Shown here piece after piece: positions 58,903 through 61,562 of a stretch of 64,000 bases of DNA (positions within the stretch are counted from its first letter, which is position 1; each line of letters opens with the position of its first letter). The notes under the pieces were generated by a model. That model was given only the letters and a program-made list of their open reading frames with translations. It did no database searches and was not told where the DNA came from. The position numbers and the translations under genes are program-made. This DNA comes from Rugamonas violacea (GTDB lineage: Bacteria; Pseudomonadota; Gammaproteobacteria; Burkholderiales; Burkholderiaceae_D). The DNA lies in contig NZ_JAEMNU010000102.1 in NCBI RefSeq assembly GCF_016461825.1, positions 1 through 64,000 on the forward strand, read 5' to 3'.

Positions 58903-59796
58903 TCAAATCAAAGAATTGACGCTGACGCCGGGCGGCAGCGCCTCGGCGTCGACCGTTACCTGATAGTCGGCAAAGCTGCGCGCCGGCGTGTCCGCTTCGC
59001 CCTGCACGCGGCTCACCTTGACGCGATCGAACAGCACGTGGGCCGGTGCGTTGCCCATGGCGTGCTCATGCTTGAAGACGATCAGCTTGCGCGCCGACAT
59101 TTCGCCTCTCGCCGCCGCGCGGTCATGCTCGAACATATTGATCAGGCTGCGCCAGAGCAGCTCCAGATCGGCCTCGGAAAAACCGGTGCGTTCCGCCAGT
59201 TTGGCCGAAATGAAGCCGTGTACCCGGTACAGGCCGTAGGGGATGATGTGCTTGCGGCCCATGGTGCGGTTGGCGCCACTTTGGTCCTCGGCTTCCTTTT
59301 CCGTGGTGACCGCCATGCGGGTGATCGAAATTTCCATTGGCACCACCGGGTCGATCGAGGTGGCGAAGGCGACTTGAATCGGGCCGCGCACCTGGCCGCA
59401 ATTGACACCGGTGCTCATGACGGCGCCGAAGCTGCGCACGTCGAAGAAGTTCATGCACATCCAGTCAGTCAACTCCTTGGCTTTGGCCGCGTCTTTCGGC
59501 AGTTTCTTGTAACCATCCTTGGCGTCGGCTGGAATGTCCAACGCTTTCCAGGCCAACTCGTGCTGATTGTTCAGGATCGCTCTTTCCTGCATGTAGATGG
59601 CATAGCCTTGCGAACCCTCTTTTTCCAGCGTGACGTAGTTTCTGATCTTGCGCTTCAGGCACACGTCGGTGACCAGGCCCTGATTGGTTTCGGGATCGAG
59701 GCGCGGCATGTTGCCGGCGTCGGGGTCGCCATTCGGGTTGCCGTTACTCACATCAAACAGGTAGACGAATTCGTAGCGGTTGGTGATGGCGTTCAT
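58903..59796 (-). CDS. cas7c: Cas7c (Csd2), Cascade backbone
   Basis: A 297-residue RAMP protein with the Csd2 start [58 protein letters not shown] and the thumb-like [14 protein letters not shown]. Several copies bind along the crRNA and form the backbone of the interference complex. Its ATG overlaps the cas8c stop (ATGA), so stoichiometry must rely on reinitiation and more efficient translation rather than a separate promoter. Confidence 0.97.
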
Positions 59797-60182
59797 TGTT
59801 CGGTTCCTTTGTCGGAGTCGGTTTTGCGGTTGAATCGGGAATGGGCCTGCTGGTAGTAGCCGATGGCAAACCGGCCCTGATCCTCCAGCCTCAGGCTGCG
59901 GGGGAACTGGCTGCCGATGCCGTCGATGATGTCGCCGATTTCCCGCTCCAGCACCACGGCCAGGCCGGGTTTTTCCTTGCGCAGCTTGCTCAGGTGATTC
60001 TGGGCGTTACGCACCAGCATGGGGAAAATGGTGGCTGGCGCGGCCGATGCAGCACCGTAGTAACGGTCCCGTATCGTGGCGTTCACTTGCGCGCCGATGG
60101 CGTTGCGTTGGGCATCCTCCAAGACGGCGAACAGGCGTCCCAAGCGGTAGCCCGGGTTGCGGTTTTCCAGGTCAAGACTCAC
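59793..60182 (-). CDS. cas11c: Cas11c, small subunit from an internal start within cas8c
   Basis: On the minus strand GAGGAG (60194-60189) is followed by six bases and then an in-frame GTG (60182-60180), codon 461 of cas8c. The resulting product is 129 residues, helical, beginning [24 protein letters not shown]. Internal translation of a Cas11 small subunit from cas8c is established for other type I-C systems. The strength and spacing of this Shine-Dalgarno sequence inside a coding region is strong evidence that the same happens here. Cas11 copies line the Cascade belly and hold the displaced DNA strand. Confidence 0.8.
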
Positions 60183-61562
60183 AGCGATCTCCTCGTTGAT
60201 TCCATGAACACCCAGGCGCCTATCGCGCACCAGGACGGCTTTGCATAATGCGATGCGCACGCCGGAAATGTCGCCGTCGGTGCGCATCCGCATGATGATG
60301 TTTGCCAGCAAGCTGCGCGGATAGCGGCTGCCGGTCAGTACTGCGCGCATCATGTCGCCGGCGAGCTGGGGCGCGATGTCGTCGGCCTTGCTCTTGTTGT
60401 CGCGGCTGGGCACGGTGGCGAGCAGCAGGCGCCAGATGGCGGGCGCGGTTTTCCATGGCTGCGGTACGATATCGAGATCCTGAAAATGCTCGGCGATGCG
60501 GCGGGCGAAGAATTCCAGGCTGCCGCTTTGCCAGAAGCGGATAGAGAGACGCGATGCGTTCGGCGCTAGACCGAGCACGAACAATTCTGTGTTGTCATCG
60601 AGATCCAAGTCTAGCTCGCGCAGTGGCCTGCCCGCGCCGACCGCTTCCAGTACCGTTTTCAGTTTCGCCGCCTCCTGGGCATCGTCGCTGGGCGGGTTCA
60701 ACAGCTCGGAAAACAGCATTTGTGCCTTGTCGCAGGCGTCCGCCGAATCGGCCTGTGCCCAGAATACGACGCTGGCGTCGCCAATTTGCAGGCGTTGCCG
60801 GTTGTGCTCGTCGCGCCGCAACAGATGGTTGAGCACCGTGCTGTAGGCGAAGGCGGCGGCTTCGGATACCGGCGCGTTGTCGCCCTGTTGCTTGCCATAG
60901 GAGGCGAAGGCTTCCAGATTGAACGACACGATCGAGGCGCCCGAGCTCTGTGCGCCATTCACGCCGCGGATGGCCGGATGCAGCCGCGCAACGGGCAAGG
61001 TTTCGCCCGTCACCAGGCATAGCCCGGTCGCCGCTTGGGCGCCGGCCAGGACTTTGGCGCGTAGCAACTGCGCTGCCGGCGATTGATGGACATACTGCTG
61101 TTCGCCGTCGAGGCGGAAGACGATATTGGCATCCCGCATCTCGTCGTTGAACAGCGGCGGACAGAATTGCTCGGGTGTCCAGTGCTGTAGGAACTGTGCC
61201 AAGGCCTGCAATGCCGGGTCGTCGGAGTCGGCAAGGTACTGTTGGTGCAAGGTTTTGAACGCCGCGTGTTCCAGGGCCGTGCGCGGCCCATTTTTTTCGC
61301 TGACGCCGAGCACATAGCCAGTCTTGTCCCACAAAAAACAGGGGGCAATGTTGGACGCGCGCTTTGCCGGTTGCGGCACGGTCATCAGGCGGGGGCGGGG
61401 CTTTTTGTCGGAGGTGTCTTGAATATCCTGCACATCGACCAAGGCGCCGTCCCTGCCCAGTATCAAGGCGTAGCTGATCTTTTCCTTGCTAAAGCCGAAC
61501 ACCGGCACCTTGTCCCGCGCCGCCAGGCGTTGATAGTATTGATTGAGTGCGCTCAGTATCAT
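59793..61562 (-). CDS. cas8c: Cas8c (Csd1), Cascade large subunit
   Basis: A 589-residue large subunit. The ATG at 61562 overlaps the cas5c stop (ATGA) and gives the family start [13 protein letters not shown]; the longer frame to 61676 is discarded. Landmarks are [76 protein letters not shown] and [20 protein letters not shown]. It recognises the PAM and binds the non-target strand. A second protein, Cas11c, is predicted from an internal start at codon 461 (60182). Confidence 0.96.

Follow-up and report, generated by a model that had tools for sequence, protein, structure and literature searches.

The window, the 64,000-nucleotide stretch of Rugamonas violacea DNA that we analysed, carries at its end, on the minus strand, a type I-C operon in the order cas3-5c-8c-7-4-1c-2 together with a CRISPR array (Table 1). 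Neighbouring cas genes either overlap, as the ATG of cas8c does with the cas5c stop (ATGA), or are separated by no more than 45 bases, and the locus looks complete. The gene that hosts the internal start described here is a true cas8c within a type I-C operon, as judged from its matches to TIGR01863 and PF09709. Neither the open reading frames nor the profile matches revealed a separate cas11 gene in the operon, and no stand-alone, Cse2-like cas11 reading frame was found within the operon outside the large-subunit gene. We assigned the strand of the array from the repeat end ...GATTGAAAC, by a rule that we take to apply here. Two of the array spacers (55029-55063 and 55163-55197), separated by a single spacer, share the same 35 bases, and the part of the array from 54000 to 56800 gave no match when compared with phage records.

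Table 1. Features of the type I-C locus, in window coordinates
Feature	Position	Strand	Evidence and remarks
cas3	62282..64000	(-)	TIGR01587; passes the window end, the reading frame beginning 501 bases beyond it (L016 position 1501)
cas5c	61559..62236	(-)	TIGR01876
cas8c, type I-C Cascade large subunit, 589 aa, ATG start	59793..61562	(-)	TIGR01863, 598.5 bits against a cut-off of 218.65; PF09709
Internal Shine-Dalgarno sequence GAGGAG	60189..60194	(-)	conserved in the family
Predicted cas11c internal start codon GTG (cas8c codon 461)	60180..60182	(-)	aligns with residue 1 of 7kha_K
Predicted cas11c, small subunit, 129 aa, in the cas8c frame, common stop	59793..60182	(-)	ORF; AlphaFold2; fold matches
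ATGA overlap, cas7 start on the common cas8c/cas11c stop	59793..59796	(-)	ORF coordinates
cas7 (Csd2)	58903..59796	(-)	TIGR02589
cas4	58261..58887	(-)	TIGR00372
cas1c	57221..58261	(-)	TIGR03640; start chosen is the ATG overlapping the cas4 stop
cas2	56921..57211	(-)	TIGR01573
CRISPR array, 59 repeats of 32 nt (58 exact, 1 with one mismatch)	52868..56742	(-), inferred	repeat end ...GATTGAAAC

Within cas8c the minus strand reads ...ATCAAC GAGGAG ATCGCT GTG AGT CTT GAC... A sequence-only reading of this DNA had pointed out GAGGAG, six bases and an in-frame GTG at codon 461 of the gene, opening a 129-residue product that ends at the Cas8c stop. Our own reading of the strand confirmed the hexamer (60194-60189), the spacer (60188-60183) and the start codon (60182-60180), and the open reading frame, which runs over 589 codons from the cas8c ATG to the stop at 59793, confirmed the product. 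Of the in-frame NTG codons in this gene, the GTG alone is preceded by a core (GGAG, GAGG or AGGA) at a distance of 4-10 nt (hereafter the strict rule). When all frames of the gene were counted there was one further pairing of core and start, at nt 1767, which is the start of cas7. We rejected the motif alone as proof of internal initiation since it is within chance in a single gene: GAGGAG-N6-GTG was found once in the window against 0.63 expected, and at least once in 44 of 100 shuffles; the exact motif was retained in 10.5% of 3000 synonymous shuffles of this cas8c, and any signal core with a start at codon 461 in 23.7% of them. We also rejected a special mRNA structure at the internal start, since folding of the RNA near the GTG is ordinary (z 0.36).

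We gathered 157 cas8c loci from two sources. The first was related whole genomes, with cas8c matches in 12 of 198, 35 of 369 and 30 of 398, the drawn sets partly overlapping; the second was a scan of genome contigs, from which the best 80 of 493 confirmed matches were taken and which is hence biased to near relatives. Only part of the cas8c matches became loci. Five loci were set aside beforehand as pieces or duplicates (L002, L014, L017, L018 and L019), and one frame was taken in each of the remaining 152. Removal of a decayed second copy, discussed below (L015 and L016), of three loci in which the C-terminus was uncovered (L038, L148 and L156) and of one duplicate (L132) left 146 genes including that of the window. 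A near search with cas8c against plasmids gave no match.

An NTG occupies the aligned codon in 138 of the 146 cas8c genes, and in 131 it is accompanied by a core under the strict rule, as compared with 13 of 145 at the second-ranking codon; these genes are related, so that the counts are not independent. Core and start were found within 5 codons of the aligned codon in 138 of 146 genes, whereas 200 sets of synonymous shuffles of the same genes gave 48.2 +/- 4.8 with a maximum of 62. After thinning at 60% identity the pair was kept in 41 of 45 genes (the site codons being 25 GTG, 17 ATG, 2 GAG and 1 GCG), and at 50% in 14 of 16. Eight genes lack a strict core within 5 codons (L006, L012, L013, L041, L088, L093, L150 and L154); in seven of these the aligned codon is an NTG and in the eighth an ATG follows one codon later, and by eye the upstream sequence is purine-rich in all eight. 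The family-wide arrangement lies far beyond chance. The sequence-only reading had proposed an alignment of cas8c nucleotide sequences as a check, and its absence from close relatives with working systems as one result that would speak against the idea. The site proved to be conserved, and no such loss was seen: both of the same-genus genomes that have cas8c, among the relatives sampled, retain GAGGAG, six bases and GTG. Records from Neisseria (including L107), Haemophilus and Actinobacillus have ATG as the start and AAGGAG as the signal, the latter lying in another codon phase, so that it is read as E-G-V or Q-G-V where the window has E-E.

It could be argued that GAGGAG and GTG are merely the Glu-Glu and Val codons kept for the structure of Cas8c, and that no separate protein is made. 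The frequency with which a single gene keeps the motif under synonymous shuffling, given above, is compatible with this, as is the frequent occurrence of E or K ahead of the start. However, the amino acids at this place vary between genes (EE, KE, GE, EG and others), whereas a GGAG-like core is retained, and in more than one codon phase. Valine at the aligned codon is encoded by GTG in 102 of 102 cases, never by GTC, GTT or GTA, as compared with 1841 of 4610 valines elsewhere in the genes. From the 146 genes and 13 of the plasmid genes described below we also formed 64 non-overlapping pairs with 50-90% identity and measured their synonymous conservation, scoring amino-acid-identical codons with Met and Trp omitted. 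Codons 456-462 ranked first of 579 seven-codon windows, with 82% of codons identical against 54% overall. The other peak of synonymous conservation, at 579-587, lies just upstream of the cas7 start and serves as a positive control. Over the Cas11c part, the window and a same-genus species are separated by 20 synonymous changes and no nonsynonymous ones. Finally, a separate small subunit that begins at the same residue has been proven in Desulfovibrio (Nitratidesulfovibrio) vulgaris, according to the structural report (PMC7684278). We therefore regard conservation of the codons for Cas8c structure only as very improbable, and the pattern in the relatives points to nucleotide-level selection on both the start and its signal.

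A different alternative leaves the start codon and the product unchanged: Cas11c would be translated from a short mRNA, made from a promoter inside cas8c, and not from the polycistronic mRNA. A scan limited to promoters of the sigma-70 type found no sigma-70-like match in 59700-61700 where chance would give 0.5, and we give this route only a very slight chance. That the small C-terminal fragment is a proteolysis product of Cas8c, as was once suggested for Cas8b (Richter 2017, as cited in PMC11899642) and as type I-B fragments were first read (PMC11899642), is hardly credible, since proteolysis would not explain why a ribosome signal and a start codon are conserved in their nucleotides.

Comparison of the product with known systems agrees with internal initiation at this GTG. 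The alignment of the 129-residue product with 7kha_K, the Cas11c of D. vulgaris, begins at residue 1 of both (E 8.1e-27). Its AlphaFold2 model has five helices and a mean pLDDT of 95.4, and each of the 16 PDB fold matches at E <=0.001 is a chain from a type I-C Cascade entry, with 8dex_J first; the product is thus predicted to have the helical-bundle fold of Cas11. In Nitratidesulfovibrio vulgaris RCH1 (L158), which has a 612-residue Cas8c, codon 489 is a GTG that follows GGAG and six bases, so that the window and D. vulgaris have the same signal core, spacing and start codon. The structural report on D. vulgaris Cascade describes small subunits that correspond to Cas8c residues 489-612 and were seen as an extra 14 kDa protein, with two small-subunit copies in native mass spectra, and credits the internal ribosome-binding site to earlier work (PMC7684278). 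The statement in the sequence-only reading that type I-C Cas8c genes elsewhere yield Cas11c internally is borne out. The same report describes a D. vulgaris Cas5c-Cas7-crRNA subcomplex that forms without Cas11c (PMC7684278), and Cas11c is reportedly needed for type I-C Cascade to form (Tan 2022, as cited in PMC11899642). D. vulgaris Cas11c (7KHA; PMC7684278) and the predicted window product are alike in their aligned start residue, GTG codon, GGAG-N6-GTG arrangement, predicted fold and position at the end of cas8c. They come from different species and are ∼46-48% identical in the structural alignment.

The Cas11 of the type I-C complex 8G9S, whose source organism we take to be Neisseria lactamica, resembles the window product in being a cas8 C-terminal product of the same fold. 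In N. lactamica cas11 is described as embedded in cas8 (PMC10865793); unlike the window, the Neisseria relative in our set (L107) has ATG at the site. Internal in-frame initiation within a large-subunit gene, as proposed for the window, has also been reported for type I-D Cas11d in cas10 and type I-B Cas11b in cas8b (McBride 2020, as cited in PMC11899642), but these are other subtypes with other large-subunit families. The cas11 gene of type I-E (Cse2) is given the same role in Cascade as Cas11c (PMC7684278), but it is a gene of its own and not internal.

The position of the start drifts between lineages. In each of the 8 of 146 genes whose aligned codon is not an NTG, another in-frame NTG is present at -2 to +4 codons, in 7 cases with a strict core. 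Four of these are +1 shifts (L005, L024, L026 and L034) in which the core has not moved and lies further from the start, and in three others the sequences show the core displaced along with the start, by +4 codons in L010 and L029 and by -2 in L048. We examined an extra set of 15 cas8c genes of named organisms, mostly from other phyla, picked from 46 plasmid records (that of Brevibacillus is partial). Core and start were paired within 8 codons, a looser rule than the 5 codons used for the 146 genes, in 13 of the 15, and in 7 they were at the aligned codon. The displaced starts were at -1 in two Thermus and one Streptomyces, at -2 in Allomeiothermus and a second Streptomyces, and at -7 in Deinococcus. 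The core is likewise displaced in all six, but our counting rule demands a core near the start, so that this co-movement is partly built in, and it holds only in part. Across the lineages, then, the start ranges from -7 to +4 codons of its usual place.

The two Bacteroidota that we examined (Parabacteroides, L161, and Phocaeicola, L165, around codons 451 and 465) have no Shine-Dalgarno core at the site; they have an ATG one codon downstream, with an A-rich stretch before it. The DNA of the A-rich region hardly differs between the two, while the proteins are ∼60% identical. In a stretch near the site that was chosen after inspection, the two share 17 of 18 informative codons, as compared with 59% over the gene. 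Bacteroidota generally depend little on Shine-Dalgarno sequences. A search for more cas8c genes of this phylum gave none in viral contigs and, in plasmids, only the same two among the matches listed (25 of 45 records). We tentatively suggest that cas8c may hold a small, movable initiation unit selected as RNA, of which the Bacteroidota form would be independent of Shine-Dalgarno sequences and would act inside a translated frame; we regard this idea as somewhat less likely than not.

Outside the window, the same contig carries a second type I-C locus, decayed, which has an array of its own (L016, contig C5 63001-70918). The cas7 copy of this locus has a broken frame, and its cas8c copy is present as two pieces on two contigs (L016 on C5, and L017 1-1065 on C52), with the start of cas3 replacing the N-terminal part. 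By eye, both of the contig ends that split this cas8c resemble insertion-sequence ends. The Cas11c part of the copy has kept GAGGAG-ATCGCC-GTG and an open frame. However, it differs from the working Cas11c at 18 residues (dN/dS ∼0.3), as compared with none between the working one and the same-genus species, and on these grounds we rejected it as a second source of Cas11c under the same selection. Given these differences, either constraint on the copy looks relaxed or the copy looks to have arrived already divergent. We read the second locus as decay, and not as a further supply of Cas11c.

Taken together, the alignment with D. vulgaris, the family-wide conservation, the synonymous constraint and the fold indicate that this cas8c very probably encodes two proteins in one frame, with Cas11c made by internal initiation at GTG 60182. 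The claim of the sequence-only reading that this locus makes Cas11c as other type I-C loci do is supported in particular by the 7kha_K alignment, by signal spacing equal to that of D. vulgaris and by nucleotide conservation in the family. Some ribosomes would start at ATG 61562 and make Cas8c, while others would bind the internal GAGGAG, start at GTG 60182 and make Cas11c, whose 129 residues are those of the Cas8c C-terminus and are predicted to fold into a helical bundle. If Cascade is built here as in D. vulgaris, two copies of Cas11c would lie along the belly of Cascade, beside the identical C-terminal domain of Cas8c, and would hold the displaced non-target DNA strand, the role given to Cas11c in the structural report (PMC7684278). 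The two-protein reading rests on sequence, position, conservation and predicted fold; translation in the host, the two copies and the need for Cas11c in interference are what we infer.

We considered whether a stronger internal signal could explain a 2:1 ratio, that is, an excess of Cas11c over Cas8c. A pattern search did not find the 16S 3' end in the organism's own genome assembly, and the anti-Shine-Dalgarno sequence used was an assumed one. In the window the internal signal, at -8.9 kcal/mol, is stronger than that of the start of cas8c itself, at -6.1 kcal/mol; the family means are -9.4 kcal/mol for the internal signal and -8.9 kcal/mol for the cas8c start (n=136 of 146, p=0.19). This explanation was rejected since there was no significant difference over the 136 genes. 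The start of cas7 is found at the same ATGA offset in 76 of 146 loci (no cas7 start was found in 4), and ribosomes from the internal start might also feed cas7 and raise the output of Cas7.

The mechanism is already published for type I-C systems (PMC7684278; PMC11899642; PMC10865793), and this locus would add another instance. Cas11c would complete the set of components of this type I-C system, in agreement with the proposal of a full Cas set without a visible cas11 gene: the operon order is cas3-5-8c-7-4-1-2 and no separate cas11 is present. In NCBIfam, Pfam and PADLOC the 129-residue product is matched only by the models of Cas8c, and automatic annotation therefore misses a Cascade subunit here. 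Recoding of cas8c without heed to codons 451-462 would probably remove Cas11c. Since the start is conserved across the family, it should be readily predictable at other type I-C loci, except in lineages such as the Bacteroidota.
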